From contig VBKY01000201.1 in NCBI GenBank assembly GCA_005879255.1, positions 1 through 18,853 on the forward strand: 18,853 nucleotides of DNA, given 5' to 3'. Shown piece by piece: positions 1-17,496 of the stretch. A program made the position numbers and the translations under genes. Numbering within the stretch: position 1 is the first letter of the stretch; every line of letters begins with the position of its first letter. The DNA comes from Deltaproteobacteria bacterium. GTDB lineage: Bacteria; Desulfobacterota_B; Binatia; UBA9968. Below the pieces are notes generated by a model that worked only from the letters and a program-made list of their open reading frames with translations, was not told the origin of the DNA and ran no database searches.

Positions 1-987
1 AACCGCACGGAGATTTTTCCGGCCTTCGATCATATTCACTTCCACTTCTTGGAAGGCGGCGAAAAGCGCTCGCGAACCGGCAATGTCGGGCCGCGAGAAT
101 GGATCGACTTTCTGGATAAAACCGAAATCGATTGGACCGTGGTTTATCCCACCGCAGGCTTGGCCGTGGGGAGAATTATCGCCGAAGACTGGGCTATCGC
201 CGCGTGTCGCGCTTACAATAATTGGCTTTATGAAAAATTCACCAACGTCAGCTCGCGCATCAAAGGCATGGCGCTGATTCCGATCCAAGATACGGAGGCG
301 GCATGCGCAGAGCTGCGCCGCGCCGTCAAAGAATTGGGCATGGCCGGCGCGATGCTGCCGTCCAATGGCGAAGGCATCAAAGGTCACTTCGGATCAAAAA
401 TTTATTGGCCGCTCTACGAAGAAGTGGAAAAGCTCAACGCTCCGCTCGCGGTGCATGTTGGCGCACTGCACCATCTCGGTATGGATAGTATCGGCGTTTA
501 TTACCCGGTCCACGCCCTCGGCCATCCCTTCGGCATCATGGCGCAAGCCGCCGCGATGTTGTCTTACGGCGTGTTCGATCGCTTCCCGAAGCTGCGCGTT
601 GGTTTTCTCGAAGGCGGCGCGACCTGGGTGCCATTTTTCATGGACCGCCTCGACCGGTCCTATCCGCACCATCTGCAGGTCGACATCAACGGAGAATTCT
701 TGTCCAGCTCCAGGCCTGACGTCACCGCGAGCAAGTATTTTCGCCGCCACGTCAAAGCCGGCCGGATCTTCGTCGGCTTTGACTGCGACGACCGCGGCCT
801 CGGCTTCGCTATCAAGGAAGCCGGCAACGAACCTTTTCTTTTCGCGACGGATTTTCCGCACGAAAGCTTCGACGCAAAGCATTGCCGGAAGGAGATCGAC
901 GAACTGCTGGAGCGGGATGACATTTCGCGCGCGGACAAGGAAGCGATCTTGGCGACCAATGCAAAGAAATTTTACGGCGCTGAGTAA
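1..987 (+). CDS. Amidohydrolase family 2 (ACMSD/decarboxylase-like), 5' truncated by window
   Basis: The frame is open from base 1, so the true start lies upstream; a TTG at 49 is internal and should not be taken as the start. The visible 328 residues fit the amidohydrolase-2 (PF04909) TIM-barrel family of metal-dependent hydrolases and non-oxidative decarboxylases. The first residues hold an FDHIHFHF stretch that may be the metal-binding HxH segment. Further on are a KLNAPLAVHVGA strand with a probable metal or catalytic His, the FPKLRVGFLEGGATWVPF segment and a late FATDFPHESFD motif, which supplies the conserved Asp and His of the (S/T)DYPH signature. The C-terminus NAKKFYG is typical of the family. 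It ends in TAA 66 bases before the hydrolase that follows. Substrate is unknown; carboxylated aromatic or cyclic compounds are usual for relatives. It is a divergent relative of the amidohydrolase at 16424-17482, not a close copy. Confidence 0.88.
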   Translation, partial: NRTEIFPAFDHIHFHFLEGGEKRSRTGNVGPREWIDFLDKTEIDWTVVYPTAGLAVGRIIAEDWAIAACRAYNNWLYEKFTNVSSRIKGMALIPIQDTEAACAELRRAVKELGMAGAMLPSNGEGIKGHFGSKIYWPLYEEVEKLNAPLAVHVGALHHLGMDSIGVYYPVHALGHPFGIMAQAAAMLSYGVFDRFPKLRVGFLEGGATWVPFFMDRLDRSYPHHLQVDINGEFLSSSRPDVTASKYFRRHVKAGRIFVGFDCDDRGLGFAIKEAGNEPFLFATDFPHESFDAKHCRKEIDELLERDDISRADKEAILATNAKKFYGAE

Positions 988-1053
988 TTAATTAGGTACG
1001 GCGCGCCAGGCAAGACTGTGAAACCGCCGCGAGCGGCGATCGAGAAAGCCGAA

Positions 1054-2058
1054 ATGAATTCGTTATGGAATAACCCGTTGACAAGACGAGCAGTTCTCAA
1101 AACCGTGGGCGCGATAGGAGCATTTATGGTAGCAGATCAGGTTTCCGCTCAACAAGCTTCAACAGCAAGGGCCAAAGGGCCGCTTGTCTGGCTCGACATG
1201 GATCAAAAAGAGCTCGATGACGCCTACGACCAAAGCGTCTATGCGCCGAATCAGCAACTGCTCGCTAAGCGCCGCCGTATAGCGAGCGAAGCGGCGCTCA
1301 AACGGCTTGGCCAACCCGAGCGTGTCGCCTACGGCCCGACGGAGATCGAGAAGCTTGATATCTACAGAACGCGTCGCTCGAACGCGCCGATTAATATTTT
1401 CATTCACGGCGGCGCTTGGCGAAACGGCCAGGCAAAGGACTCCGCCTTTTTAGCAGAGATGTTCATCAATGCCGGAGTTCATTTGGTGATTCCAGACTTT
1501 GTGCAAGTGCAGGATGCGGGCGGCAGCCTTATGCCGATGGCCCAACAAGTTCGCAGCGCCGTGGCTTGGGTCTACAAGAACGCGGCGCGCTTCGGCGGCG
1601 AACCAAATCGCATTTACATCATGGGGCATTCTTCCGGGGCTCATCTCAGCGGTTGCACGCTCGTTGCCGACTGGCAAAAGGATTTCGGCTCGCCAGCGAA
1701 CATTCTCAAAGGCGGGTTCTTGATCAGTGGCATGTACGATTTGAAAGCCGTCAGGTTATCAAAGCGCAGCGAATATGTGAAGTTCACCGATGAGATCGAG
1801 CACGCGCTGAGCTCGCAACGTCACCTCGATAAATTAAATGCGCCCATCATCGTCGCCTACGGCTCACAAGAAACGCCCGAGTTTCAGCGCCAGAACCGCG
1901 AATTTGCCGCCGCCGTAAAAACCGCGGGCAAGCCGGTCGAGTTGATTGTCGGCGAAGGCTTCAATCATTTCGAAATGCAAGAAACACTGGGAAATCCCTA
2001 CGGCGTCGCCGGCCGCGCCGCACTGAAGCTAATGAACCTATCAATGAATCCAAGCTAA
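1054..2058 (+). CDS. Tat-exported alpha/beta hydrolase, arylformamidase/carboxylesterase-like
   Basis: The product is 334 residues from ATG 1054. An in-frame GTG at 1018 would add 12 residues, but ATG 1054 puts GAGAAAG just upstream and gives a clean leader. That leader has LTRRAVLKTVG (twin Arg at residues 11-12), a hydrophobic stretch and an SAQQ processing site near residue 33, suggesting Tat export. The fold is shown by the oxyanion-hole motif HGGAW (118-122), the nucleophile elbow GHSSG with Ser193, an acidic residue in GSQETPEF near 273, and His305 in GFNHFEM. This arrangement fits the kynurenine formamidase / BD-FAE-like branch acting on small esters or formamides; that assignment is by motif only. 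The next gene starts 11 bases after the stop, so the two are probably cotranscribed. A secreted arylformamidase-like enzyme is unusual, and the substrate cannot be named. Confidence 0.85.
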   Translation: MNSLWNNPLTRRAVLKTVGAIGAFMVADQVSAQQASTARAKGPLVWLDMDQKELDDAYDQSVYAPNQQLLAKRRRIASEAALKRLGQPERVAYGPTEIEKLDIYRTRRSNAPINIFIHGGAWRNGQAKDSAFLAEMFINAGVHLVIPDFVQVQDAGGSLMPMAQQVRSAVAWVYKNAARFGGEPNRIYIMGHSSGAHLSGCTLVADWQKDFGSPANILKGGFLISGMYDLKAVRLSKRSEYVKFTDEIEHALSSQRHLDKLNAPIIVAYGSQETPEFQRQNREFAAAVKTAGKPVELIVGEGFNHFEMQETLGNPYGVAGRAALKLMNLSMNPS

Positions 2059-2069
2059 GAGGAGTAACC

Positions 2070-2609
2070 ATGAGCCGAATTCCCCGCGCACAACGCGAAG
2101 AACTGTCAGCCGAACATCAACAAATTTGGGATCACATCAATGCCGCGCGAAGCGGCGGCGCCGGACCTTATTCCATGCTGCTGCATGTGCCGACCCTCGC
2201 TGGGCATCTCGCGGCCACCGAAGACTATTTTAGATTGAATGCAGCGCTTCCCGACGCCGACCGCGAGATCATTATTCTCACGGCGGCGCGCGAGCTGGGT
2301 GCGCACTATCCGTGGACGCGTCACGAGATTCGCGCGCGCAAGGCCGGGCTGCGCGCGGAAGTGATCGAGACCATTCGCGCCAAAGGCTCCTTTTCCGGTT
2401 TCACGCCGAGGGAAAAGCTCCTGGCGGAGATTCCTCTGAGCTTGATGCGTGAACATCGCTTGTCGGACGAATTATTCGCACGCGCGGAACGTGAGCTAAG
2501 CCGGCGAGAGCTGATCGAGGCGATCGCGCTCGTCGGCCATTACGCGACGATCGGTTTCGTGGTCAATGCCTTCGATGTAAAGGCTCCGGAGGGTAGCAAG
2601 ACGTTTTAA
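2070..2609 (+). CDS. Carboxymuconolactone decarboxylase (CMD)-family protein
   Basis: This is a 179-residue all-helical protein. ATG 2070 is preceded by AGAGGAG at 2058-2064, which overlaps the end of the upstream hydrolase and marks an operon. The core LTAARELGAHYPWTRHEIRARKAG (about residues 69-92) matches the CMD/AhpD-like helix pair usually written as ELGAxYEWxxHExxARKAG. The His pair and acidic residues are kept, but the redox CxxC of true AhpD peroxidases is absent, so a thiol peroxidase role is unlikely. A second conserved stretch, RRELIEAIALVGHYATIGFVVNAF, lies near the C-terminus and is typical of the single-domain relatives found beside aromatic-degradation genes. Activity is not known; gamma-carboxymuconolactone decarboxylase itself is only one member of this fold. 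It is the last gene of the plus-strand block and is followed by a palindromic repeat element. Confidence 0.85.
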   Translation: MSRIPRAQREELSAEHQQIWDHINAARSGGAGPYSMLLHVPTLAGHLAATEDYFRLNAALPDADREIIILTAARELGAHYPWTRHEIRARKAGLRAEVIETIRAKGSFSGFTPREKLLAEIPLSLMREHRLSDELFARAERELSRRELIEAIALVGHYATIGFVVNAFDVKAPEGSKTF

Positions 2610-2636
2610 TATCATCGAATCGGATGAGTCTCTTGT

Positions 2637-2734
2637 CCGTCATTCCTGCGAAAGCAGGAATCCAGGTTCGGATTCCGTGTCGCCCCGCCCGTTGAAACAT
2701 GCCTCCTGGATGCCGGCGTTCGCCGGCATGACGG
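2637..2734. repeat. Paired palindromic dispersed repeat (two inverted hairpins, REP/MITE-like)
   Basis: A 30-base unit at 2637-2666 and its inverted copy at 2705-2734 match at 25 of 30 positions and enclose 38 bases. Each arm also folds alone: ATTCCTGC-GAAA-GCAGGAAT on the left and TGCCGGC-loop-GCCGGCA on the right. Four of the five differences fall as two base-pair swaps (T-A to G-C) within the stem and the fifth is in the loop, so pairing is preserved. This general form (GTCATTCC...GGAATCCAG) is common between genes in soil proteobacteria. It lies between a plus-strand stop at 2609 and a minus-strand stop at 2775, so it may also end transcription from both sides, although no U-tract is seen. 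Confidence 0.8.
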
Positions 2735-2774
2735 CAGGAAGCCGATCAACTTATTTTAGCAATCTACGATCACT

Positions 2775-3965
2775 TCATATGACCGACACCATTCCATGCT
2801 CGCGCTTGAATAGCGTTTCGCAACCTCGATCCGTAACAATCAGCGGGCCGCCGCAGCTGAATTGAATTTTTTCATCGGCTGTCATCGCGATCGGTTTCCA
2901 AACAAAAGTGTTGCCTTTTTCGATCCGCAAATCGCGAACTCTATCTCCCCGTGATCTGGCCGAGAGCAGCGGCCCATCGTCGCCATAGCCGCAGCCGTGC
3001 AGCTGGACGACGGACTTCACGCCTCGTTTCACGCCCAAGCCATCGACGAACTCTGTCAATGCCCCGAACGTCGTGCCCGGTTTGATCGTTGCCAAGCCGG
3101 CTTCATAAACCTCCTTGTGCAGTTCAATCAGCGGCTTCCAAGCGTCAGGAATCTTGCCGAGCAAAATAGGTTGGCACACTTGCGTCAGCTGGGCGCCGCG
3201 AATGGCGTTTACCTCATTGGTAATCAGCGCATTCGGTCCCAGCCGCCGTCCGAGCGGCGGATTTAAATAGCGTTTGGGTTTTTCCGTGCCGATCGCGTCG
3301 ATCGTTAAAGCGAGCGGAAAATATTCGCTGCGCAGCTCTATCAAGCGCCCCAGTACGTCGGCGTAAAGAACGCCGGCATCGACGCCCGGCCGCGCCAGCT
3401 TGATTAATTCGTCAATGCCCGCCGTTGCGACTTCGGTCGATTGACGCACGAATGAGATTTCCTCATCGCTCTTGACGTAGCGGACGACGCCGACAAGGTC
3501 CGTCGCATCTTCGAACGTCGCGTTGGGCAATTTGCTCATGACATATTCGAACGCCGTGTGATTGACCACGCCGTCGATCGAGGTGCAGTGGCTCACCGAT
3601 CCGCCCTTCAAGCCCGCGACACCGATGCGCGCGCGCTGCATGCCGAGATCGAGCAGCGCTTCGCCCATCGGTTCAGCCCATTCGCGACCGGTCTGCCAGG
3701 GCTCGGGCACCCACGCGTTACTCGATCGACGATCGGCGATCACCATCGGCGCGCGACCATCGGTCGGCAGCACCATCGCCGAGCAGCGTAACTGCGTCAG
3801 GTAGCGCCCGTCGACGCCGTTGCCTAACGGCACGAAGATGCAATCCATGCCTGCCTTTGCGGCGTTTGCTCTGACAGCGTTCCAGCGCCGATCGCGCTCC
3901 GCTAATGAGTATCCGTTCCAGATGTGAACTGTCGCGCCAGAGGCGGCGGGTGTGGTCCAGGGCAT
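2775..3965 (-). CDS. M24 (creatinase / aminopeptidase P fold) protein, likely metal-free, paralog 1
   Basis: The product is 396 residues; ATG 3965 is preceded by AGGAG (3974-3978 on the complement). The N-terminal part (about 14-150) is creatinase-N-like, with GYSLAERDRRW, DCIFVPL and LPTDGRAPMVIADRRSS. The C-terminal part (about 165-396) follows the M24 pita-bread fold, with YVKSDEEISFVRQS, IKPGTTF and LHGCGYGDDGPL. By eye the usual five metal ligands are mostly lost. The first Asp region reads ITNEVNA (Glu251), the second Asp is in LTQVCQP, the EPG glutamate is replaced in WKPIAM, and the last Glu is replaced in CGGPLIVT. Only His323 of HGxG is kept. Peptidase activity is therefore doubtful; a creatinase-like or other metal-free hydrolase or lyase role is possible. 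It is a tandem paralog of the next gene and probably the last gene of this minus-strand block. Confidence 0.85.
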   Translation of the reverse strand: MPWTTPAASGATVHIWNGYSLAERDRRWNAVRANAAKAGMDCIFVPLGNGVDGRYLTQLRCSAMVLPTDGRAPMVIADRRSSNAWVPEPWQTGREWAEPMGEALLDLGMQRARIGVAGLKGGSVSHCTSIDGVVNHTAFEYVMSKLPNATFEDATDLVGVVRYVKSDEEISFVRQSTEVATAGIDELIKLARPGVDAGVLYADVLGRLIELRSEYFPLALTIDAIGTEKPKRYLNPPLGRRLGPNALITNEVNAIRGAQLTQVCQPILLGKIPDAWKPLIELHKEVYEAGLATIKPGTTFGALTEFVDGLGVKRGVKSVVQLHGCGYGDDGPLLSARSRGDRVRDLRIEKGNTFVWKPIAMTADEKIQFSCGGPLIVTDRGCETLFKREHGMVSVI

Positions 3966-3979
3966 GATAATAACTCCTG

Positions 3980-4007
3980 TTTCGGGTCTCGCGTTTCGGG
4001 TTTCGGG
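3980..4007. repeat. Short TTTCGGG tandem/interspersed repeat
   Basis: TTTCGGG occurs at 3980-3986, 3994-4000 and 4001-4007, in the 74-base gap between the two M24-like genes. A further degenerate unit, TCTCGCG, lies between the first two copies. The tract sits just upstream of the AGGAG site of paralog 1 and so falls in the untranslated spacer if the pair is cotranscribed. Function unknown; it may be one of the short dispersed repeats seen at other gene borders here. Confidence 0.5.
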
Positions 4008-4039
4008 TTAAACACGGGACGCAAAACCCTAAACGGTTT

Positions 4040-5254
4040 TCAAGTAATCGACACCATTCCCGGCGTCCGCTTCACCAGCGGCTCGCCGCCTTTGTCCGTC
4101 ACGAGGACGCAGCCGCCCCAGCTGGTATCGAAGCTGTCATCGGCGGTTTTGACGATGGGCTTGACGATAAAAACATTTCCGCTCTCGATCAGCACGTCGC
4201 GGTTGCGCGCGCCGCGGTTTTGCGGCGTGAACAGCGGGCCGTCGTCGCCGTAACCGCGGCCGTGCATGAGCATGATACTCTTCGCGCCGCGCTTCTCGCC
4301 AAAGCCGTTGACGAAATCCATGAACTCGGCGAAAGGCTGACCCGGCGTCAGGTGCTCAAGCGCCGCGTAGTAAAGATCGTGCTGAACATCAATGGCAGTT
4401 TTCCACTCATCGGGAATGGGTCCTAAAAAAATCGGCTGCTGCTCTTGTGCGATCAGCCCGCCGAACACCGCATCGACTTCGTTGGCGATCCGATACATCG
4501 GCCGGAGCGTTCTGCCTTCCGTCGGATCTTCAAAGCGAGGCAACCGGCCCCCGCCATGAAGACCACTATAAAATGCCATCGGATAGTATTCGCTGCCCAG
4601 CTCGACCATCCGCTTCATCACGCTGGTGTAGAGAATGCCTTCGTCCATGCCCGGGCGCGCCAGCTCGATCATTTTATCGATGCCGGCCGCGGCGATCGCC
4701 GAGCCGCACCTCAGGCAGGCGATTTGTTCTTCGCTCTTGACGTAGCGCGCATGGCCGACCACTTCGGTGGCATTGTCGAACGTCGCATTGGGCAGGAGCC
4801 GCAACACCTCGGCGTAAGAACTATGGTTGACCACGCCGTGATAGGCGCGGCCGTGGGTGTACAAGCTGCGGCGAATGCCGGAGACGCCGATGCGCGCGCG
4901 CTCCATGCCGGCATCGATCAACGCCCGCGCCATGCTCGTTCCCCACGATCCATCCACGGGACGGAGCTCCGGAATCCAATCGTTGCCGCTCTCTTGATCG
5001 GAAATGATGATCGGCTTGCGGCCGTCGGTGGGCAAAATCACGGCGGCGTTTTCTAGTTGCGTGAGAAACCGGCAGTCGGACCGCGTGCCGCGCGCCTGCT
5101 CCAGAGAAAGGTGCAAATTGCGACCATCGACGCAGAGGGGCACGAAGATGCAATCGAATCCGGCTTTGGCCGCATCGTCGCGCACCCGCTGCCAGCGCCA
5201 ATCGCGCTCAGCCAATGAATAGCCAGTCCATTCAATATCAGCCGGTGATTCCAT
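4040..5254 (-). CDS. M24 (creatinase / aminopeptidase P fold) protein, likely metal-free, paralog 2
   Basis: The product is 404 residues. Two ATG codons stand in tandem (5257 and 5254). AGGAGG at 5262-5267 lies 4 bases from the first and 7 from the second, so 5254 is preferred. The domain order matches its downstream neighbour: GYSLAERDWRW, DCIFVPL and LPTDGRKPIIISDQES in the N-domain, then YVKSEEQIACLR, a conserved MHGRGYGDDGPLF block and GGCVLVTDKGGEPL in the C-domain. About half the residues appear identical by eye. This copy has roughly 19 extra residues in the N-domain around its second FLTQL segment. It shows the same substitutions at the expected metal sites (IANEVDA, EQQPI, IVKPIV, WGGCVLVT) and the same retained His. 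Shared loss of ligands in both paralogs suggests an old property of the subfamily rather than decay. The next gene begins 74 bases downstream on the same strand. Confidence 0.86.
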   Translation of the reverse strand: MESPADIEWTGYSLAERDWRWQRVRDDAAKAGFDCIFVPLCVDGRNLHLSLEQARGTRSDCRFLTQLENAAVILPTDGRKPIIISDQESGNDWIPELRPVDGSWGTSMARALIDAGMERARIGVSGIRRSLYTHGRAYHGVVNHSSYAEVLRLLPNATFDNATEVVGHARYVKSEEQIACLRCGSAIAAAGIDKMIELARPGMDEGILYTSVMKRMVELGSEYYPMAFYSGLHGGGRLPRFEDPTEGRTLRPMYRIANEVDAVFGGLIAQEQQPIFLGPIPDEWKTAIDVQHDLYYAALEHLTPGQPFAEFMDFVNGFGEKRGAKSIMLMHGRGYGDDGPLFTPQNRGARNRDVLIESGNVFIVKPIVKTADDSFDTSWGGCVLVTDKGGEPLVKRTPGMVSIT

Positions 5255-5327
5255 CATTGATCCTCCTAAGCTACTCTAAGCGTGAACTAACAATCTGCGG
5301 CGAGCCGGTCGAGATCATCAAGGTCTG

Positions 5328-5408
5328 CTACGGGCGCATCGCCAGCGCTTCTTCGAGATCGACGACTTTCAGGATATCGCGGTTGTTCACGTTGACGCCG
5401 CGCCGACC
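5328..5408 (-). pseudogene. Possible C-terminal remnant of an unidentified gene
   Basis: Read on the minus strand, the segment gives a 26-residue protein-like tail, GRRGVNVNNRDILKVV followed by DLEEALAMRP, then TAG at 5328-5330. An in-frame TGA at 5409-5411 lies directly upstream. The alternation of hydrophobic and charged residues and the DLEEALAMRP ending look like a real C-terminus rather than random translation, but no family is recognised. It stops being readable about 23 bases from the 20-base palindrome at 5434, as if a repeat or deletion cut it. Low confidence. Confidence 0.22.
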
Positions 5409-5433
5409 TCATGGTGCGATTTCCTCATTCGCT

Positions 5434-5453
5434 GGGCACAGCATGCTGTGCCC
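5434..5453. repeat. Perfect 20-bp palindrome, dispersed-repeat type
   Basis: GGGCACAGCATGCTGTGCCC reads the same on both strands and is followed by CTACATT. Palindromes of the GTAGGGGCACAGCATGC type recur between genes in many environmental proteobacterial genomes, so this is best read as one member of a dispersed family. It has no U-tract. It could also serve as a protein-binding site or a stem in the leader of the M24-like genes. Confidence 0.65.
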
Positions 5454-5463
5454 CTACATTTCC

Positions 5464-5490
5464 TCTCTGCGAACTCCGCGCGTCTCTGCG
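5464..5490. repeat. TCTCTGCG short repeat tract
   Basis: TCTCTGCG occurs at 5464-5471 and 5483-5490, separated by an AACTCCGCGCG spacer. The 11-mer GCGCGTCTCTG (5478-5488) is repeated at 13459-13469, in the spacer upstream of the MmgE/PrpD gene. The tract resembles the low-complexity CTCTGCGxxCTCTGCGG repeats scattered in such genomes. No function assigned. Confidence 0.4.
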
Positions 5491-5574
5491 GTAAAATCCG
5501 TCTCCTCGTGCCCGTGTCTGTCCTTCACGTATCCGATCAATTTTTTGCGCGCGCCGAACCCGAAACTCATACTA

Positions 5575-6597
5575 TTAAGGCGCGCATGCCAGCGTGCGGA
5601 TTCGGCCCTCGCTGGGCAGCTCGATATCGAGTTTTTGCCAACTCTCGCCGCCGTCGGCGGTATTGTAGAGTTTGCCATCGGCGGCGCCCACATAAAGCGA
5701 CTCGGCTGCCAACGGATCCATCGCGAGCGCATTCCAACCGACGATATAAAGCGGTCGGATCGCAGTGGCGATTTCCTCAAAGCTCGTTCCACCATCCGTG
5801 CTTTTGTAAATCGAGCTTTCATTTTTGGCGCCGCTGGGCGGCGCCATCGAGGCCGTGGCGTAGATGACGTTAGGGTCGTGCGGGTGAAGTACCACCGCGC
5901 CGAAGTATTTTTTCATTCGATAACCGCGATCGAGCCGCAACCAATTTGCGCCGCAATCGTCGCTGCGATAGAGACCGTCACCGGTCGTGACGAAGAGTCG
6001 ATCCGGATCCTGCTGCGAAAGTTTGACCACATGGCAATCTTGATAGACTCCGGTGACCCGGCTTACGGGCCGAAAGGTCTCCGCCTCCCCTTTGCTCACA
6101 TACCGCCAGCGCTCCCCGGCGTCGACACTCTGAATGACTCCGCCTTCTTCAATCGAACAGTACATCACTTCCGGATCCTCGGGATGAATGGCGATTCCTT
6201 TGATATGCGCAATATGCGGCGGGGGCGGATAGCTCCATTTATTTCGACCCGGCAGTTTCCGCACGCCCGTAAGCTCCATCCAAGTCTCGCCACCGTCATT
6301 GCTTCTGAACAGGAACGGCGGCTCGGCGCCCGCATAGACGGTCATCGGATCCGACGGATGAAAGGCCAAGGAAAAAATTTTGCACTCCGCCAATCCCTTG
6401 AGTTGCCACGTGCGTCCGCCGTCGGCGCTCTTATACAGACCTTTTTCAGTGCCTGCCAGAAAAGTCTCCTCAGCGCCGGGAAGCGCCGCAACGACGATAC
6501 AATCGGCGAGACCCGAGGAGACGCTGTGCTTCTCCAGATCGACGACAAAAACTCCTGTCCCCTGCATGGCAACGAGAAGTTTCCGCGAGCCTTTCAT
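5575..6597 (-). CDS. Asp-box (BNR) beta-propeller protein, copy 1
   Basis: The product is 340 residues from ATG 6597, which is preceded by AGGAGGT (6601-6607); an upstream in-frame ATG at 6612 lies outside that site and is rejected. Six Asp-box motifs (SxDxGxxW) are visible: SADGGRTW, SNDGGETW, SVDAGERW, SDDCGANW, STDGGTSF and TADGGESW. They mark the turns of a six- or seven-bladed propeller of the sialidase/VPS10/YCF48-like superfamily. No signal peptide or membrane segment is seen, so it is probably cytoplasmic. Outside the boxes it shares PPPHIAHIKG, an IEEGG motif and a QDCHVVK segment with the homolog at 7624-8640, which suggests a common His/Glu-lined site. It follows the LLM oxidoreductase by 22 bases. 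The sialidase catalytic Arg triad is not evident. Role unknown: an enzyme, scaffold or binding protein are all possible. Confidence 0.85.
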   Translation of the reverse strand: MKGSRKLLVAMQGTGVFVVDLEKHSVSSGLADCIVVAALPGAEETFLAGTEKGLYKSADGGRTWQLKGLAECKIFSLAFHPSDPMTVYAGAEPPFLFRSNDGGETWMELTGVRKLPGRNKWSYPPPPHIAHIKGIAIHPEDPEVMYCSIEEGGVIQSVDAGERWRYVSKGEAETFRPVSRVTGVYQDCHVVKLSQQDPDRLFVTTGDGLYRSDDCGANWLRLDRGYRMKKYFGAVVLHPHDPNVIYATASMAPPSGAKNESSIYKSTDGGTSFEEIATAIRPLYIVGWNALAMDPLAAESLYVGAADGKLYNTADGGESWQKLDIELPSEGRIRTLACAP

Positions 6598-6619
6598 ATT
6601 ACCTCCTGACATGTCTTAG

Positions 6620-7618
6620 TCATACCTTTGCGTTCTTGGCGTCTTGGCGCGCTGACAGTCGAGGCCGCAGTTCGTTCATCAAGAGTCGTATTTGCGTTCG
6701 CGCATCCGCAGTGACCAACCGCGCGACGATGGCGTTTAGGCCGGCATCGACATAAGCTTGCAGCTTTAGCGCGATCGTCTCCGGCGTGCCAAAAAAAGGC
6801 GACAGATGACCGAGCTTAGAGCGCGGCTGGCGAAAATAACGTTCGGCCAAGCTCCAGCCTTCCTCTTCGGCATCCGCGCCGCCCGTCGTGAGATGAAAAG
6901 TGGCGAAGAGGATAGAAGGTATTTTCTCGCCGTCGCGGTCATACTCTTTGGCGCACTTCTCGATCTTCCGCCGCCGTGCAAAAAATTTCTCGAAAGTAGG
7001 CGCTACCGTAAACCAGCCGTCGCCCAAGCGCGCCACGCGCCGCAGCGCGTTTTCGTTGTCCCCGGCGGCGATCCAAATGGGGATGGGCCTCTGGATCGGT
7101 TTGGGCTCGATGCCAAGCTCCTCGAAGCGATAGTATTTGCCTTCGAAGGCAAACGAAGCTTCGGTCCATAAACGTCGTAACAATTGAATCGATTCGTTCA
7201 AACGGCCCGCCCTTTGCTGGTACGGCACACCGCAAGCGTCGAATTCGCGCTCGGCGAATTGATACTGATGCACGGGGCTCACGCCGACGATGGTTCTACC
7301 AGCCGAGATGACATCCAGTGTGGCCAAACTGTGCGCCGTCAGCACCGGATTTCTCAGCGCCAAGATGAGCGGCACCATGCCGATTCTTATCTTGCGCGTT
7401 CTCGCTGCGATAGCAGCCGTCATTACAATGCAATCTGCATGGGCTCTGTCCTGCATCGACAATCGCGGGCTGTCGCCGACCCAGAGATGATCGATTCCCG
7501 ATTCCTCGGCAAACGCCGCGGTTTCCCAAAGCTCGCCCACTTTAGACAAACCTTCGCCTTCGCCCATCAGGTGACGCGTGTGCAGCAACAGGCCGAGCTC
7601 AAGAATCGGTGCTGACAT
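6620..7618 (-). CDS. LLM-class (luciferase-like) F420/FMN-dependent oxidoreductase
   Basis: The product is 332 residues from ATG 7618, chosen because MSAPILELGLLLHTRHL is the normal first strand of the family; an earlier ATG at 7681 overlaps the upstream gene by 58 bases. Family features are WETAAFAEESGIDHLWVGDSP, the RIGMVPLILALRNPVLTAHSLATLD segment, GVSPVHQYQFAEREFDACGV, a GRLNESIQLLRRLW helix, the PIPIWIAAGDNENALRRVARLGDGWF strand-helix and a late DAGLNAIVARLV. These support a TIM-barrel bacterial-luciferase-like monooxygenase or reductase using reduced flavin or F420; which cofactor is not decided by sequence. It starts 5 bases after the stop of the upstream propeller gene, so translational coupling is likely. 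The last residues, RQDAKNAKV, are encoded by a dispersed repeat (6625-6649) and look like a late addition. Confidence 0.88.
   Translation of the reverse strand: MSAPILELGLLLHTRHLMGEGEGLSKVGELWETAAFAEESGIDHLWVGDSPRLSMQDRAHADCIVMTAAIAARTRKIRIGMVPLILALRNPVLTAHSLATLDVISAGRTIVGVSPVHQYQFAEREFDACGVPYQQRAGRLNESIQLLRRLWTEASFAFEGKYYRFEELGIEPKPIQRPIPIWIAAGDNENALRRVARLGDGWFTVAPTFEKFFARRRKIEKCAKEYDRDGEKIPSILFATFHLTTGGADAEEEGWSLAERYFRQPRSKLGHLSPFFGTPETIALKLQAYVDAGLNAIVARLVTADARTQIRLLMNELRPRLSARQDAKNAKV
6625..6649. repeat. Dispersed repeat forming the 3' end of the LLM gene
   Basis: The unit TCTTGGCG is repeated head to tail at 6634-6641 and 6642-6649, preceded by CCTTTGCGT. On the coding strand this reads as the CGCCAAGA-CGCCAAGA-ACGCAAAGG type of short repeat found between genes of many bacteria. 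It lies inside the open frame of the flavin oxidoreductase and encodes its final residues. Confidence 0.55.
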
Positions 7619-7623
7619 GAGCG

Positions 7624-8640
7624 TTAGTGGCGGGCCACTCGGATGCTCGAAACCGATGGCAGGCCGCCGAGAACCTGGCAAAACGATTCGCCGCCGTCTT
7701 CGCTCAACCAGATCGTACCATCGGTCATACCGACAAAGAAGGCGTTCGGCTCTTCAGGATCGCCCGCGGTCGCCCGCGGCGCTGCCTTGAAATGATCCGG
7801 CAATCCCCCGGAAAGTCTTTGCCAAGCCTCGCCCTGGTTCTCGCTGCGATAGAAGGCCGCGCCCGCTCCTTCGGGCCGGCGCCATAACGGCGGCGGAACC
7901 GCCGCGGCGGCCGAGAAGAGCACATGGGGCCGCGCGGAGTGGCAAACGAGTTGCGCCATGTAGCGGCAGTCGAGCCCGTGGCTGGACTCAACGAAGCTAT
8001 CGCCGCCGTTGGTACTCTTGAAGACTCCCTGGCCGGAGGTGGCGATCACGACTTCCGGATTATCCGTCATTACCGCGACCGAGTGCGCATCAAACTCGAC
8101 GCCTTCTTTTATGTTCTTCCAACCCTTCCCGCCATCTTGGCTACGCACCACCCATCCCTCTTCGATCGCGCCGAAAATAACCATGGGATCATCCGCGCAA
8201 AGCGCCAGTCCCTTGACATGGCTCACGTGGGGCGGACGCGGGAAGGTCCAATCGATAGTTTCAGGCAGGTCCCTGAGCCGTTCGCAATCAAGCCAATGAT
8301 CGCCGCGGTCGTTACTCTTAAACACAGACGATGGGCCGGTGCCGACAAAAAGCTCCGCCGTCTTGGGGTGCTGGACGATACACCATGTTTCTTTATAGAG
8401 AATACCGTCGTTGATCTCCCGCCAGCTCGTGCCGCCATCTTCGCTGCGCTGCACGCCGCCTCGACCGGTTGCGGCGTAGAGGCGCCGCGGATCGTCCCGG
8501 TCGATCAACACCGGCGACCTCAATGCGCCTTTGCCCTGAAGTGCCAAGGGACGAGAGTTGTACTCTTTGCCATTGGGCTCAGCCAGGTACAAACCATCTT
8601 CAGTACCGACATAGAGGACGCGAGTTGAATCGCCTATCAT
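7624..8640 (-). CDS. Asp-box (BNR) beta-propeller protein, copy 2
   Basis: The product is 338 residues from ATG 8640, preceded by AAGGAG about 6 bases away. An upstream in-frame ATG at 8733 would add 31 residues that are unlike the family and lack a good ribosome site. Asp boxes are SEDGGTSW, SNDRGDHW, SQDGGKGW, STNGGDSF, SENQGEAW and SEDGGESF. It parallels the propeller at 5575-6597 in blade order. The two share non-box motifs: a RPPHVSHVKG block after the second box, IEEGW before the third, and a FDAHSVAV segment. No export signal is visible. It is the first gene of the minus-strand operon, read from the divergent spacer 8641-8816 and followed 5 bases later by the LLM oxidoreductase. Shared motifs and synteny suggest the two propellers arose by duplication and act in the same process. 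Function is not established. Confidence 0.85.
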   Translation of the reverse strand: MIGDSTRVLYVGTEDGLYLAEPNGKEYNSRPLALQGKGALRSPVLIDRDDPRRLYAATGRGGVQRSEDGGTSWREINDGILYKETWCIVQHPKTAELFVGTGPSSVFKSNDRGDHWLDCERLRDLPETIDWTFPRPPHVSHVKGLALCADDPMVIFGAIEEGWVVRSQDGGKGWKNIKEGVEFDAHSVAVMTDNPEVVIATSGQGVFKSTNGGDSFVESSHGLDCRYMAQLVCHSARPHVLFSAAAAVPPPLWRRPEGAGAAFYRSENQGEAWQRLSGGLPDHFKAAPRATAGDPEEPNAFFVGMTDGTIWLSEDGGESFCQVLGGLPSVSSIRVARH

Positions 8641-8816
8641 AAAACTCTCCTTCCTGAGATCAGAAACTATCCCGAATAATTTGCCGTATCTATCCGTTCC
8701 CGTACGGTTGCGCTTGCAACCAGGCATACTCATCGCCTGTCAATTTGCATCAATCGAACAGGAGTTGTTACAACTGACCAATTCATAGTATAGGCGGCAC
8801 CGTGAGACAAGATTCG
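8641..8816. promoter_or_regulatory. Divergent promoter/operator region between propeller operon and binding-protein gene
   Basis: About 176 bases separate the start of the minus-strand propeller gene from the plus-strand binding-protein gene, so both promoters should lie here. Two symmetrical sites stand out: a hairpin-capable GGTTGC-GCTT-GCAACC at 8706-8721 and an 11-base palindrome GTTGTTACAAC at 8764-8774. A loose plus-strand promoter (TTGTTA at 8766, TATAGG near 8790) overlaps the second palindrome. Promoter boxes are only suggestive, and no regulator gene is present in the window. Confidence 0.4.
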
Positions 8817-9834
8817 ATGCGTCTATTTCCTGTTACCGCGCTATTTGGGTTTTTGCTGCTTCATTCCGCGCTCGTCGGAGCCCAAGTCGAGAAAGTAAAA
8901 GTCGGGCTGCTCATGATCAACGCCGACGCCGGTGTCTTCCTGGCGCAGGAGAAGGGTTATTTTCGCGAGCAAGGACTCGCCGTTGAGATAACTTATTTTA
9001 GCTCCTCCGGCGGCCCACAGATGGCCGCGTTGACTACAGGCGAGTTGGACGTGGGCAGCGGCAGTATCAGCCCAGGAATCTACAATTCAGTAGCGGCCGG
9101 CTTAAATATGAGAGTGGTTGCCAGCAAATCGCGTGTCGGCCCGCGGGGTAGCGGCAAGTACATGGTGCGCCGCGCGTTGGTCGAGCCAGGCAAACCCTTC
9201 ACGCTCAAAGACCTCAAGGGAAAAGTGATCGCGCTCAACAGCGTCGGCGGGTCATCGCGCCTCTACATGGACGGCTTGTTAAGAAAGGCGGGGCTTAGGG
9301 AAAGCGATGTCATCGTGCGCGTCCTATCCTTCAATGACATGGTCGGCGCGCTATCCCAGGGCGCGGTCGATGTGGCGTTTCTGGTACAGCCCTTCATCAC
9401 CATAGCCGATGAAAAAAATATCGGCGTGGGCATCGCCGATCTTTGGGAGCTGTTCCCCGGTCATATGACCAATAACTTGTTTTACTCCGATGCCTTCATT
9501 CGCAATCGCCCAACGGTGGCGGAAAAGTTTATGGCAGCCTTCCTCAAAGGGCAGCGATATTTCTACGACGCCGTCGTCAAGAAGAAAGAGTCCCTCGACA
9601 GCGTCGTCGACATCGTCGCCAAGTACTCACGCACCGGAGATCGAAAGGTGCTGCGACTCGGCGTCGGCGTGACGGAGCTCACCCCCCAACGGTGAAATGG
9701 ATCTCAAAGAAATCCAGGACGACCAAGATTGGTATTTTCAGAAAGGGCTGGTCAAAACCAAGGTCGATGTCAACAGGATGGTGGATTTGCACTTCCTGCA
9801 GTTTGCGGTGAAGAGTTTGGGAATCTACAAATAG
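8817..9834 (+). pseudogene. ABC-type (NMT1/SsuA-like) substrate-binding protein, frameshifted
   Basis: The first frame runs from ATG 8817 (alternative GTG 8802) to TGA 9693-9695. It starts with a Sec signal peptide (MRLFPVTALFGFLLLHSALVGA, cut before Gln23) and then shows periplasmic binding-protein features: DAGVFLAQEKGYFREQGL, ALTTGELDVGSGS, FTLKDLKGKVIALNS and AAFLKGQRYFYDAV. The C-terminal part continues in the +1 frame from 9697 to TAG 9834 (MDLKEIQDDQDWYFQKG ... LQFAVKSLGIYK). Removing one C from the C6 run at 9682-9687 joins the two as TELTPNGEMDLKEIQDD and gives a 338-residue protein, a normal length for the family. So either the gene is a recent frameshift mutant or the run is a sequencing error. 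No permease or ATPase gene is nearby. The ligand is unknown; relatives bind sulfonates, nitrate, or pyrimidine or aromatic anions. Confidence 0.85.
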
Positions 9835-9881
9835 CGGGAGCTGGCGTCCTTGATACGGCATTCCGAGCGAGCCGGTTGCGA

Positions 9882-9942
9882 TTCAGCCCCCGCCACAAAA
9901 TCTTGGCCAGCCGTCAGAAGCCCTGTGGCGGATCAGGCTGAA
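9882..9942. terminator. Long imperfect inverted repeat between convergent genes
   Basis: The left arm 9882-9897 (TTCAGCC then CCGCCACA) pairs with the right arm 9924-9942 (TGTGGCGG then GGCTGAA), giving 7 + 8 base pairs with a small bulge and a 26-base loop. It lies between the plus-strand binding-protein stop (9834) and the minus-strand SET gene stop (9994), where a shared terminator would be expected. No U-tract follows on either strand, so a factor-independent terminator is not proved; a repeat remnant is the alternative. Confidence 0.35.
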
Positions 9943-9993
9943 GCTGGCGCGACCCGGAATCCAGAAATTGACGGGGGAGATAAATAAGTTATT

Positions 9994-10458
9994 TCATTCT
10001 TCCTCACCGAGCATTGTGCCGCGGCAGCGTCGCGCTTTGCAGAAGCAGGCATGCTCGCGCTTCGCCTTCTTCGTATGCTTTTCGCCGATCTGCAAATTGT
10101 AATCATAGGTGAGTTCCTCGCCGGCGCGGATATCGCGGCGAGCGTCGATGAAGATGCGATGGCCTTCCTCCTCGATCTCGCAGTTGGGCGCACACGAATG
10201 ATTGATCCAACGCGCCGAGTTGCCGCGGCGTGTGGCGTCGATTACCAACCCGCCATCGAGCGAGAAGAGCATCGTATGCGGTGAGTTCGCGTGCATGCGG
10301 CTGTAGCGCCGGTCGGCCTCTTTGTCAGTAATGAGCTTGCCTTTGTATTCGATGATACGCACGCCCTTTGGAATACGCCTCAACGCAAACACACCGCGCC
10401 CATGAATTGGCGAGTTATGGACAGCGATGCGGCGGCGTTTGTTTCTCGGTTCCGGCAT
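9994..10458 (-). CDS. SET-domain protein-lysine methyltransferase homolog
   Basis: The product is 154 residues; ATG 10458 is preceded by GGGAG (10463-10467 on the complement). It is a compact stand-alone SET domain. It shows SPIHGRGVFA (16-25) for SAM binding, EYKGKLIT (37-44), the pseudoknot signature RWINHSCAPNC (83-93) and GEELTYDY (113-120) with the active-site Tyr. A post-SET zinc motif CxCx4CRG follows (Cys138, Cys140, Cys145), with Cys89 of NHSC as the usual fourth ligand. All the main catalytic features of eukaryotic-type SET enzymes are therefore present, and methyl transfer from SAM to a protein lysine is expected. Bacterial substrates are largely unknown; DNA-binding or ribosomal proteins are candidates. 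The basic N-terminus (PRNKRRR) could bind nucleic acid. It starts 36 bases after the HpaB-like gene stop, so cotranscription is likely. Confidence 0.92.
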   Translation of the reverse strand: MPEPRNKRRRIAVHNSPIHGRGVFALRRIPKGVRIIEYKGKLITDKEADRRYSRMHANSPHTMLFSLDGGLVIDATRRGNSARWINHSCAPNCEIEEEGHRIFIDARRDIRAGEELTYDYNLQIGEKHTKKAKREHACFCKARRCRGTMLGEEE

Positions 10459-10493
10459 GTTACTCCCAACGACAATTACTCGATGGACATGAA

Positions 10494-11927
10494 TTAGCGG
10501 TCGTTGTCCATGCCCTTGACGAATTTAAGCATCCGTTCCATTGGTACGGGATCTTGGTACTGGCCGTACAGACGAAGGCGCATGCGGTCGACCTCGCCGC
10601 TCTGCAGGCGCTCATACAACTGGCTGCGCTTGCCGAACGGACTCATCACCATGTCGGCGGCAATCGCCATCAAGCGCAAATGTTCCTTGGTGTTCGGCGC
10701 ACCACCGCGAAAGTAACGGTCGACCAGAGGACCGATGCCTCCGCTGGTGAGATCGGATGCTCCGCCGCTCAACATCAGAGTGCTGGTCAGCAAAGCTTCC
10801 ATCGTCCGTTCTGCGCGGTCCGACGCTTCAATGCTATGGACACGATACGCCGCGCTCAAGCGCGGCGCCCAGGTGCCGCCAGGGCTCATATATCCTTTCG
10901 TCTCAGCGACTTGAATGCAAGAACGAAGGATCTCAATGTCTTGCATCAAGCTCGAAAGCAGAATCTGTGATGACGGGCTCTTGTTGCGCCCGCCATATTG
11001 CGTCAATAGCTGGGCGACGCCGAGAAATCCTTCCAGCTTGGTGATCAGCCGCAGCATCGTCGAATACTGCGCCCAGGTGTGAATGTACATGATACCGGAA
11101 AGAAGCTTGGGATCTTTGTAAACGAAGATACGCTCCCAGGGCACGATCACGTCATCAAAAATCAGCGCTGCGTCGACTTCGTCGAAACGGGTCGTCAAGG
11201 GATGCCGCTCAGGATCGGCGTGCTCAGCGTACAGATCGCGGCAAAGGATCTTCAATCCTCGGGTATTCATCGGAATCGCGAACGCGATCGCGTAGTCGGC
11301 CTCATCCGGATCGCGTGGCCGGTTGGGATACACCAGAACTTCATCTGAGATCGGCGCGAGGGTCGCCAGCGTACGCAGGCCGCGAACCACCGCGCCTTCT
11401 TTGGTTTCGTCGACGATGTGCAGGATCAAGTCCGGATCTTCTTGCTCGCTTACCCTTTTCGATCGGTTGTAATATTGGTCGGTAAGCGCGTGAGTCAAGC
11501 AAAGATCGTTACGCCGGCAGTGAAGATAATAGTTCCTGGCATTTTCGGCCCATTGTTTATTGTGTTTTTCGATCGCGTGCGTCCAGTCAAGCAGCCCTAC
11601 CACGAGCTGGGCACAGAAGTCGGGATAGCGCCCCATCTGACCAAAAGTCTGCTGCGCCCAAAACTCGATGTTGCGTCGTTTGAGCGCGAGATCTTCTGAA
11701 ATCTTCGGCGCCAGATAGCTATACGATATTCGTTCGCCCTCGTGCTCCAAAGTCATGACATCCCGGTACTCCGGCGAATGCTGTTTGTCGTACAGATCGG
11801 CGAGAGTCTTGATCGTGCCGGTGAATCCTGAATGAGTCGTTACGTCCTCAATGCGCCGTCCGGCGTGCCAAACTTCCCGGCCGTCGCTTAGCGCGCGGAT
11901 AAAGTCAGCCCCTCTTCTAACGGGCAT
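10494..11927 (-). CDS. 4-hydroxyphenylacetate 3-hydroxylase (HpaB)-family FADH2-dependent monooxygenase
   Basis: The product is 477 residues, the normal length for the large oxygenase component; ATG 11927 has GGAGG at 11937-11941. The acyl-CoA-dehydrogenase-like fold is shown by an N-domain with FGQMGRYPDF (95-104) and ENARNYYLHCR (128-138), CLTHAL with His146, the AFAIPMNTRGLKILCR segment, SRFDE-like TTRFDEVDAALIFDDVIVPWERIFVY and a helical C-domain ending MERMLKFVKGMD. These enzymes use reduced FAD from a separate reductase (HpaC type) to hydroxylate phenols; no reductase gene is in the window. Relative to HpaB as I remember it, Arg100 and His146 are retained, but the substrate-contacting Tyr four residues after the Arg is Phe104. 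A different substrate, or a 4-hydroxybutyryl-CoA-dehydratase-like side branch, is therefore possible. It lies between the MmgE/PrpD and SET genes on the same strand. Confidence 0.87.
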   Translation of the reverse strand: MPVRRGADFIRALSDGREVWHAGRRIEDVTTHSGFTGTIKTLADLYDKQHSPEYRDVMTLEHEGERISYSYLAPKISEDLALKRRNIEFWAQQTFGQMGRYPDFCAQLVVGLLDWTHAIEKHNKQWAENARNYYLHCRRNDLCLTHALTDQYYNRSKRVSEQEDPDLILHIVDETKEGAVVRGLRTLATLAPISDEVLVYPNRPRDPDEADYAIAFAIPMNTRGLKILCRDLYAEHADPERHPLTTRFDEVDAALIFDDVIVPWERIFVYKDPKLLSGIMYIHTWAQYSTMLRLITKLEGFLGVAQLLTQYGGRNKSPSSQILLSSLMQDIEILRSCIQVAETKGYMSPGGTWAPRLSAAYRVHSIEASDRAERTMEALLTSTLMLSGGASDLTSGGIGPLVDRYFRGGAPNTKEHLRLMAIAADMVMSPFGKRSQLYERLQSGEVDRMRLRLYGQYQDPVPMERMLKFVKGMDNDR

Positions 11928-12009
11928 GGAAACGAACCTCCAAGCTCGATGTGGCTGTTTCTTTGAGCATGAAAGTTTATAGCGTCAATTGCTCGGCGCA
12001 GGCAACCCG

Positions 12010-12026
12010 CCGAACTCTCAGTTCGG
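12010..12026. other. 7-bp hairpin between MmgE/PrpD and HpaB-like genes
   Basis: CCGAACT-CTC-AGTTCGG is a perfect 7-base-pair stem with a 3-base loop, in the 120-base spacer between the two minus-strand genes. A T-rich tract (12031-12045 on the complement) precedes the hairpin instead of following it in the direction of transcription, so it does not look like a standard intrinsic terminator. It could be a processing or attenuation stem. Confidence 0.35.
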
Positions 12027-12047
12027 ACCAATGGGAAAAAATAAAGA

Positions 12048-13400
12048 TCAACCCCTAAGGATTTCACAGAGCGGCTGGATGTCCGTGAGCGCGTCCAACT
12101 TTTCAATGTAATCCAAAGCCCGTGCTGTGCCGCCTTCGTCAATCGCTTGGCGCGCACATTCGGCAAACTTCCCTCGAAGCTCTTCTTCGGTCATGGGAAA
12201 CTCGGGACCGCCTCTGGCGTGTTGCGCCTCGCGGGAAAGGGTTTGGCCGCTTTTCAGACGAATCGTGACTCGGCAAGGCCGGCCTCCCAGATCGGTTTTT
12301 TTGAGATTGTCATCCAGTTTCATCTGCACTCGTTCGGCGAGCTTTAAGACGTTTTGATCCCGCACCGCGGCGTCGGTAAAAATATCTAATCCGACTTTGC
12401 CGTCGATGATCGCCCGCGCCACTAGGTAAGGCATGCAGAACTTTCCCTGAATACCGGTTTGGGGAACCCGGAAGACGATTCTTTCGAAAGTGTGCTTGAC
12501 TACGTCGACATCGACGGCCTCGATCATCTCCGGAGTTAGGCCATGCTTCGCTCTAAACTCGATCACCGAGTCGATGACTTGATGGGTAAGACCACCGCAA
12601 GGATAGGGTTTGATTCTGATACCGTCGCTTAGCAGCGCATAGGACTCGCCAAGTTCGTCAATCGGTTGCTCGTGAATCGCCGTGCCCTGATGCAACACTT
12701 GGTAAAATCCAAAGCCGCCTTCGATCGCTTTTGCGTTGGCCGTGTAACCACCTTGCGCGAGTTTGGCGGTCAGGACGCCGTTTCGCGCGCCGAGGCCGAC
12801 GTGCAGCGGCTTTGTCATCGTGCCGAAATTGGCCACGATGCCGCCGGCCATCGACGCCGCGATGCCGAGCGCCATCTCGAGTCGAGCTGCGCTGAGGCCG
12901 AGCAGTTTCCCGCACGCGGCGGTGGCGCCAAAGGAACCCAACGTACTCGGCGCGTGCCAGCCGTCATGGGCGCTGTCGCGCAGTGAATGAGCCAGTTTCC
13001 CGGTCACTTCGAAACCGGCGACGTACGCTTCGATCAGTTGACGACCATTGACGCCGAGGGACTCTCCCAAAGCGAAGACCGCGGGAATGATCGGCGCCGT
13101 GGGTTGTCCCATAATCGTGAAGCTGTGGTCGAAATCGAGCGCGTGCGCCGCCGTACCGTTGGCGAGGGCCGCGTTTAGTGGCGAAGTCTTGAATCCGTGA
13201 CCGATTACGGTGGTCTCCTCCTTGGCGTTTTCTTGGCGCGCAATCTGCGCGCAGATTTTTGCGTCCTCTTCTTGGCTGCCGGCGAGCGCGACACCGAGGC
13301 AATCGCGCACCGCGGTCTTGGCCGTTTGCACGGCTGCGGGCGGGATGCTTTGGTATTTCAACTCCGAAACAAATCGAGCGATTCTTGCAGTGACATCCAT
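12048..13400 (-). CDS. MmgE/PrpD family protein (2-methylcitrate dehydratase fold)
   Basis: The product is 450 residues from ATG 13400, preceded by GGAGG at 13405-13409. An upstream in-frame ATG at 13610 would add 70 residues of Pro/Arg-rich, non-family sequence and is rejected. Family features are ALANGTAAHALDFDHS near 80-95, WHAPSTLGSFGATAACGKLLGL, the GTMTKPLHVGLGARNG lid segment, KPYPCGGLTHQVIDSV and the small C-terminal domain with RVTIRLKSGQTL. The family includes 2-methylcitrate dehydratase, cis-aconitate decarboxylase and iminodisuccinate epimerase. Here the usual DDT...HPS segment reads DHSFTIMGQPTAP, so the exact reaction is uncertain. No methylcitrate synthase or lyase gene is nearby, which argues against propionate metabolism and for a catabolic dehydratase or isomerase. 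It is the first gene of the block that continues to the HpaB-like and SET genes. Confidence 0.87.
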   Translation of the reverse strand: MDVTARIARFVSELKYQSIPPAAVQTAKTAVRDCLGVALAGSQEEDAKICAQIARQENAKEETTVIGHGFKTSPLNAALANGTAAHALDFDHSFTIMGQPTAPIIPAVFALGESLGVNGRQLIEAYVAGFEVTGKLAHSLRDSAHDGWHAPSTLGSFGATAACGKLLGLSAARLEMALGIAASMAGGIVANFGTMTKPLHVGLGARNGVLTAKLAQGGYTANAKAIEGGFGFYQVLHQGTAIHEQPIDELGESYALLSDGIRIKPYPCGGLTHQVIDSVIEFRAKHGLTPEMIEAVDVDVVKHTFERIVFRVPQTGIQGKFCMPYLVARAIIDGKVGLDIFTDAAVRDQNVLKLAERVQMKLDDNLKKTDLGGRPCRVTIRLKSGQTLSREAQHARGGPEFPMTEEELRGKFAECARQAIDEGGTARALDYIEKLDALTDIQPLCEILRG

Positions 13401-13707
13401 AAATCCTCCATGAAGGTTTCTTCGTAGCTTTTTGCTTTGAGTCTCTTCTAGCAAAGCTGCGCGTCTCTGACTAGGCAAAAAAAACTGCCATCGGTGCTGC
13501 AGCACACAGCACAAAGGGCAGCGAAGTCGCAAGCAAAAAGGTGGAGCATGGCCCGCTCTTCGATCCTCCCCCGCGTGCGGGGAGAAAAGAGGTGGTCGTG
13601 GGCACGGCAAGCGAACCGATCGGCTGGGACTCTGGAAGTAGCGCGGCGGAATCCAAGCGCGCGTCGACGCGACCAGCTTTTCGTGCTACGCGTTAGGGAT
13701 TAACTCC
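13401..13707. other. 307-base divergent spacer with hairpin repeat
   Basis: This separates the minus-strand MmgE/PrpD gene from plus-strand MurJ and must hold both promoters. It contains an A8 run near 13478-13485, the palindrome GTGCTGCAGCAC (13494-13505), the 11-mer GCGCGTCTCTG (13459-13469, also at 5478-5488) and the GC-rich hairpin at 13566-13584. No convincing -35/-10 pair or small gene is seen; the open frames crossing it have no family character. Confidence 0.55.
13566..13584. repeat. GC-rich hairpin repeat (CTCCCC...GGGGAG)
   Basis: CTCCCCCGCGTGCGGGGAG folds on itself and is followed by AAAAGAGG, with CTCTTCGATC before it, so the outer flanks can pair weakly too. Hairpins of this CTCCCCCGC-GCGGGGGAG type are common dispersed elements in high-GC soil bacteria. 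It lies about 125 bases upstream of the MurJ start. Confidence 0.5.
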
Positions 13708-17482: not shown

Positions 17483-17496
17483 ATCGCTTTATCGCG

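Follow-up and report, generated by a model that had tools for sequence, protein, structure and literature searches.

Asp-box beta-propellers and the proteins most readily confused with them have been described in several settings. GH33 sialidases are marked by an arginine triad and a nucleophilic Tyr, and Vps10/sortilin is a ten-bladed propeller with 10CC domains. YCF48/HCF136 acts in photosystem II assembly, and Reut_B4987 (YP_299179.1, PDB 3b7f) is an Asp-box propeller of unknown function. Two of these Asp-box propellers, YCF48 and sortilin, have been solved with bound peptides, as the titles of their structures state, and the functional top face of such propellers lies opposite the Asp boxes according to PMC2716378. 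Here we analyze two propellers, propA and propB, that flank a luciferase-like (LLM-class) oxidoreductase gene in an 18,853-nucleotide stretch of DNA, hereafter the window, from a Deltaproteobacteria bacterium (assembly GCA_005879255.1, contig VBKY01000201.1, positions 1 to 18,853). Both are Asp-box propellers of the known kind, from an uncharacterized subfamily whose residue set and gene context are consistent. Together with the LLM gene they appear to form a single transcription unit, which lies in a catabolic region of a Candidatus Binatia-related bacterium:

7624-8640, minus strand: propB, the first gene, 338 amino acids from an ATG start; a seven-bladed Asp-box beta-propeller, recognized from its open reading frame, a Shine-Dalgarno-like sequence and six Asp boxes
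6620-7618, minus strand: LLM-class (luciferase-like) oxidoreductase, 332 amino acids from an ATG start; PF00296 match
5575-6597, minus strand: propA, 340 amino acids from an ATG start; a seven-bladed Asp-box beta-propeller

An earlier note on this DNA had described two related Asp-box propellers around one LLM gene on a single strand, and this arrangement is borne out by three minus-strand open reading frames separated by 5 bases (propB to LLM) and 22 bases (LLM to propA), by the PF00296 match of the middle gene, and by 28% identity between the propellers over 296 amino acids (E 1e-45, far past chance). A Shine-Dalgarno-like sequence precedes both propeller starts, AGGAAGGAGAG upstream of propB and AGGAGG before the propA ATG at 6597. 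A longer propA start at 6612 is also open, and the aligned propA homologs among the matches listed point to the start at 6597.

Each propeller carries six Asp boxes (pattern [ST]x[DN]xGxx[WF]), and AlphaFold2 models of both are confident seven-bladed propellers, with predicted local distance difference test (pLDDT) 94.6 and predicted template modeling score (pTM) 0.92 for propB, and 91.9 and 0.91 for propA; boxes, models and fold matches together place both in the Asp-box beta-propeller class. The two fall into separate clades of a quick tree, each with a Shimodaira-Hasegawa-like approximate likelihood-ratio (SH-aLRT) support of 100, and are therefore deep paralogs. Recent duplication of one propeller is rejected on the same clades and the 28% identity. 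The family is wide: propB has 593 homologs at E 0.001, and 4856 of 7999 scored candidates passed E 0.001 in the propA search, more distant Asp-box propellers included. Among Pfam families, Sortilin-Vps10 matches both propellers, and PSII_BNR and BNR lie above cut-off in propA only.

The earlier note had also singled out three shared motifs, PPHxxHxKG, IEEG and DxH, all of which are present in both copies at the following positions, computed from the starts of the open reading frames:

8209-8235, minus strand: PPHVSHVKG of propB, residues 136-144, with His141 at the inner-strand start of blade 3
8155-8166, minus strand: IEEG of propB, residues 159-162, with Glu160 at the end of strand 2 and loop 2-3 of blade 3
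8083-8091, minus strand: DAH of propB, residues 184-186; strand 185-190 in the model
6196-6222, minus strand: PPHIAHIKG of propA, residues 126-134
6142-6153, minus strand: IEEG of propA, residues 149-152
6031-6039, minus strand: DCH of propA, residues 187-189

Their order is the same in both proteins, with PPHxxHxKG after box 2, IEEG eight residues before box 3 and DxH before box 4. In propB, Asp184 lies just ahead of the inner strand of blade 4 and His186 within the start of that strand.

A core of these residues is conserved well beyond the two copies, an outcome that the earlier note had named as support for its idea. Among 27 sequences from the closest relatives (alignment A1, propB numbering), the invariant columns include Trp131, Pro134, Pro137, His138, His141, Lys143, Glu160, Glu161, Asp184 and His186. 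With more distant members added (A2, 100 sequences, propB numbering), Asp184 is invariant and Trp131, Pro134, Pro137, His141, Glu160, His186 and Tyr227 are each kept in at least 90%. Around propA (A3, 76 sequences, numbered from the long propA start), Glu155, Asp192 and His194 are invariant, with His136, Trp126 and Tyr236 at 90% or more. We further surveyed 400 genomes of one GTDB phylum (that of genome G020, whose loci are labelled Chloroflexota or Dormiibacterota), scoring at most five candidates per genome, and 105 of them had matches at E 1e-55. The best propeller in each of 80 regions taken from this survey keeps Asp184 in 76, His186 in 80 and Glu160 in 74 cases, all three together in 74; Tyr227 is present in 74, Trp131 in 77 and His141 in 61. 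Lys143 occurs in 19 and Arg at that position in 37. Two motif residues did not hold up: the first His of PPH (His138) is found in 28 of the 80 regions and the second Glu of IEEG (Glu161) in none.

IEEG or VEEG occurs in 116 of 120 propB relatives and 33 of 33 propA relatives among the matches listed, and the double Glu is, judging by these sequences, typical of the A and B clades. Exact PPHxxHxKG is found in 98 of 120 B relatives and 12 of 33 A relatives listed and in 3 of 86 wider ones, and the looser PPxxx[HR]x[KR] in 114, 29 and 53, respectively. The residue set also recurs in Virgibacillus (L006), Haloferax (L010) and Novosphingobium (L008) loci, on a Roseomonas plasmid (L183) and on haloarchaeal plasmids. 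Because the motifs are found across bacteria and haloarchaea, they are a family signature rather than a feature of the LLM pairing. Across the family the set consists of Glu / Asp-x-His / Tyr, in most cases accompanied by a second His and a Trp. Members on the haloarchaeal plasmids L184, L185, L187, L191, L192 and L193 are annotated as glycosyl hydrolase or hypothetical protein. No relative was found in viral contigs with propB or the LLM as single query; a profile scan of these contigs gave seven weak Asp-box propeller relatives (L195-L201) at 22-27% identity.

By strand positions in the predicted models, the residue set sits at the inner-strand starts and 2-3 loops of blades 3-5, and by topology it would lie on the top face near the channel, opposite the Asp boxes. 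The earlier note had named a model with the motif residues together in the central channel as support, and their strand positions put them near that channel. Inspected by eye, the N-termini of the window propellers show no evident signal peptide (no predictor was run), and the family is probably cytosolic. The two propellers are old paralogs within a wide, uncharacterized family of seven-bladed Asp-box propellers, and we propose that the conserved set would form one top-face site for a metal or a polar substrate. The LLM enzyme would oxidize an imported organic compound using reduced flavin or F420, as one of several possible oxidizing partners. Acting on the substrate or product of that enzyme, the propellers would carry out a non-redox step (hydrolysis, isomerization, or the opening or closing of a lactone) in the manner of propeller lactonases or the fungal muconate cyclase, and the two copies may act on two intermediates. 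This reading, in which a cytosolic propeller enzyme serves oxidative catabolism alongside different recruited oxygenases, with an activity that we infer, is the one we favor tentatively, as quite possible though short of probable. Its more ambitious form is rather unlikely as a whole: the Asp-box propeller fold would host a new class of enzymes, cytosolic and distinct from glycosidases, with a Glu / Asp-x-His (usually plus His) top-face site, performing a shared non-redox step (lactone hydrolysis, isomerization or cyclization) beside diverse oxygenases in bacteria and archaea, and present twice around one LLM here for two successive intermediates.

Linkage in Binatia was gauged indirectly, by comparing the propB, propA and LLM cluster tables for longest contigs of identical size, with sizes shifted by 1-60 bases as control (120 shifted controls, no source filter). 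Of the 120 propB clusters listed, 13 share their exact longest-contig size with one of the 119 LLM clusters listed (control mean 1.9, maximum 8), and 11 of these 13 also share the source, as checked by eye; the coinciding LLMs are 63-79% and the coinciding propB sequences 66-84% identical to those of the window. The propB-LLM pair thus seems kept in Candidatus Binatia. Coincidences of propA stay within the control range (mean 0.5, maximum 4), at 2 of 31 listed with propB (one, of 5650 bp, agreeing in source) and 1 of 31 listed with the LLM. Pairing kept in many genomes, which the earlier note had named as support, is thus favored indirectly for propB and the LLM in Binatia, whereas the coincidences say nothing firm on propA.

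For the wider family we counted 86 loci, made up of 31 chosen by eye for Lys at position 143 (with the exception of L002, which has Arg) and 55 others, taking only the best propeller per locus. Left out were L112 (3 kb), L176-L182 (four 3b7f-like, three others), L102, L001 (the same gene as L093), the short-flank copies L081-L090, L094 and further search loci; L148 and L149 are overlapping regions with a single LLM in common. An LLM lies within 500 bp in 5 of the 31 loci (0.29 expected at the LLM density of these genomes), within 2 kb in the same 5 (1.10 expected) and within 5 kb in 9 (2.42 expected). Outside Binatia, 6 of the 400 surveyed genomes hold ten B-type copies at 48% identity or more, one with an LLM 25 bases away, one with an LLM match 8.9 kb away and eight with none in the stretch examined. 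The LLMs near wider-family propellers are only distant relatives of that in the window, scoring 42-52 bits against a model of its relatives, and so the LLM partners seem to have been recruited separately. A dedicated propeller-LLM-propeller system, the earlier note's central idea, is rejected as a general rule on the 72 of 86 loci without an LLM within 5 kb, the single adjacent LLM among the ten B-type copies and the control-level propA coincidences. Homologs mostly without an LLM neighbor, the outcome named there as telling against such a system, are what the wider family presents and, as far as seen, not what propB presents in Binatia. The propeller-LLM operon looks like a lineage-specific form.

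Elsewhere the neighbors of family members are varied, but oxygenases (flavin monooxygenases among them), dehydrogenases and genes of ring-cleavage or uptake type recur. Loci L092 (2238-4670) and L100 (7051-10071) contain single reading frames in which a zinc alcohol dehydrogenase is followed by a B-type propeller, with linkers of different length; a FAD-binding-3 monooxygenase match adjoins or overlaps the upstream part of each frame, and the first part of the L100 frame, which overlaps that match, is probably non-coding. In L093 a zinc alcohol dehydrogenase lies 35 bp from the propeller, and weak matches to such an enzyme are found less than 2 kb away in two more loci. Of the 31 loci, 5 (counting the query's own) have an acyl-CoA-dehydrogenase-fold protein within 5 kb, against 0 of the 55. 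The Roseomonas plasmid carries, in a row, a flavin reductase, an acyl-CoA-dehydrogenase-type protein, an alpha/beta hydrolase and the propeller. In the Novosphingobium metagenome-assembled genome (MAG; L008) the propeller stands between an amidohydrolase and an acyl-CoA-dehydrogenase-type gene, with a LigB-like dioxygenase and an RraA-like protein recognized by eye only. Two Caballeronia plasmids have propellers among an aldolase/citrate lyase family protein, two binding proteins, VOC, amidohydrolase, SDR and fumarylacetoacetate hydrolase genes (L188) and among amidohydrolase, MmgE/PrpD and NMT1 genes (L190); both propellers lack the WPP block and keep Glu160, Asp184, His186 and Tyr227. Rieske proteins, considered as the true partner, lie near 10 of the 31 loci against 2 of the 55, but we do not use this link because 14-128 Rieske matches per genome in 7 genomes may make it background. 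LLM and Rieske matches are numerous (as many as 114 and 128, respectively) in the uncultured Chloroflexota-type genomes G003, G004, G008, G017, G020, G021 and G046.

Several observations weigh against a propeller enzyme of oxidative catabolism. We know of no activity for any family member, and none was found published in the open-licence literature. An LLM lies within 5 kb in 14 of the 86 loci and none was seen in 72; flanks are shorter than 5 kb in several loci (L095, L112 and L122 among them), where absence of an LLM is not proof. The contrast between the two sets of loci is weak (9 of 31 against 5 of 55 for all LLM profile matches, Fisher p 0.030; 9 of 31 against 4 of 55 when counted by clustering, p 0.011), and the uniform-density expectation ignores the clustering of catabolic genes and the kinship of the genomes. 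His141 is replaced, mostly by Tyr, or unaligned in 19 of the 80 regions, and position 143 is mostly Arg. Residues 131-140 of propB, the loop with Trp131, two Pro and His138, have a mean pLDDT of 57 and are the least certain part of the model. For six haloarchaeal plasmid members, the annotated genes immediately adjoining the propeller include neither an oxygenase nor a ring-cleavage gene; four further plasmid records carry no annotation around it.

The pairing with an LLM could be without mechanistic meaning, large paralogous families meeting in mixed catabolic regions and the Binatia pair being merely inherited. We consider this doubtful but a serious contender: each of 13 relatives has between 1 and 114 LLM matches in its genome, and the 72 loci without an LLM, the one adjacent LLM among ten B-type copies and the propA coincidences within the control range all fit it, whereas the same-source coincidences of exact size reaching LLMs of 63-79% and propB sequences of 66-84% identity, the 5-base gap and the 5 of 31 loci with an LLM within 500 bp do not. 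Alternatively, the propellers may be non-catalytic scaffold, stabilizer or substrate-presenting subunits of the LLM and other oxidoreductases, comparable to YCF48, which aids photosystem II assembly. The short gaps, the indirect evidence for a kept propB-LLM pair, the propeller frames joined in two genomes to an oxidoreductase of another kind and the peptide-bound structures of YCF48 and sortilin are consistent with such a role. However, neighbors vary widely or are absent while 74 of 80 regions retain all of Glu160, Asp184 and His186; a small-molecule site fits this better than a partner surface, and we regard the subunit role as unlikely. Ordinary glycosidases or sialidases are highly improbable despite database names such as glycosyl hydrolase or sialidase family protein and despite GH74 xyloglucanases ranking high among the fold matches, above most others for propA. 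Neither window propeller has a Pfam sialidase domain at E 0.1, although PF13088 occurs in some homologs; both stay far below the cut-off of the NCBIfam glycosylhydrolase model discussed below, and no carbohydrate-active family was found among the 15 window proteins scanned.

The setting of the operon in the window is consistent with the enzyme reading. Nearby genes encode an NMT1-type binding protein, an HpaB-type hydroxylase, MmgE/PrpD, two amidohydrolases, an alpha/beta hydrolase and a carboxymuconolactone-decarboxylase-family protein, and the usual roles of these families (HpaB, MmgE/PrpD, amidohydrolases and others) suggest a catabolic setting. A promoter scan of 2600-9000 found 0 sites against 3.2 expected and terminator-like sites in the same interval number 4 against 7.4 expected, neither count being informative; Rfam and tRNA scans of the window at default thresholds gave no match. 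Two of five named propB relatives among the matches listed are from Candidatus Binatia, the others being Acidoferrales, Saccharimonadales and Verrucomicrobiae MAGs; five of six named LLM relatives listed are from Candidatus Binatia and one from a Deltaproteobacteria MAG. Other features recorded in the window are these:

2775-5257, minus strand: two M24-fold proteins in tandem (48% identity), encoded on the propA strand and downstream of that gene
9994-10458, minus strand: small stand-alone SET-domain protein (PF00856) adjoining catabolic genes
49-987: Amidohydrolase_2 protein whose match begins at position 54 of the profile and which may be truncated by the end of the window

Nothing on point was found in the open-licence literature on propeller-LLM pairing or on the propeller family, and within the main text of the Binatota genome paper PMC8262859 the terms luciferase, propeller, BNR, aromatic, F420 and flavin were not found. 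Among described systems, the middle gene resembles TIGR03619-type LLM oxidoreductases: it passes PF00296 Bac_luciferase (169.5 bits against a gathering cut-off of 27.9, E 1.6e-49), and its best NCBIfam model is TIGR03619, an F420-dependent LLM subfamily, whose cut-off of 166.9 it misses at 158.7 bits. Its cofactor may be flavin or F420. The propellers share the Asp-box fold with YCF48/HCF136, and Pfam PSII_BNR matches propA (47.2 bits, cut-off 27); however, propB scores 23.4, below that cut-off, and the NCBIfam Ycf48 model gives 55.2 and 21.2 bits against a cut-off of 326. Vps10/sortilin differs in that its Pfam cut-off is passed via short stretches only (best 72-81 of 446 positions), and the window propellers have 338-340 amino acids and models that match seven-bladed propellers over their length. 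The F510_1955 family glycosylhydrolase model scores 105.2 and 97.0 bits against a cut-off of 175. As for GH33, neither propeller matches the Pfam sialidase domain (PF13088) at E 0.1, although that domain is present in precomputed domains of some homologs. Listed relatives are named sialidase, glycosyl hydrolase or photosystem II stability/assembly factor-like, names that the tests on the window proteins do not support.

In the alignment, the propeller 3b7f has Ser-Ser in place of Glu-Glu and Lys in place of His, and it lacks the PPH block. Its counterparts L176, L177, L181 and L182, with Ser, Gly, His, His and Phe at Glu160, Asp184, His186, Gly203 and Tyr227, form a separate motif group, told apart by Ser for Glu160, His for Gly203 and Phe for Tyr227. 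Similarity to the fungal 3-carboxy-cis,cis-muconate lactonizing enzyme (1jof) and the propeller gluconolactonases (6igb, 6nau) is one of fold only, at 6-10% identity and with Z scores tied with many unrelated propellers. The conserved polar set and the oxidative-catabolism neighbors give a large family a concrete, testable function.

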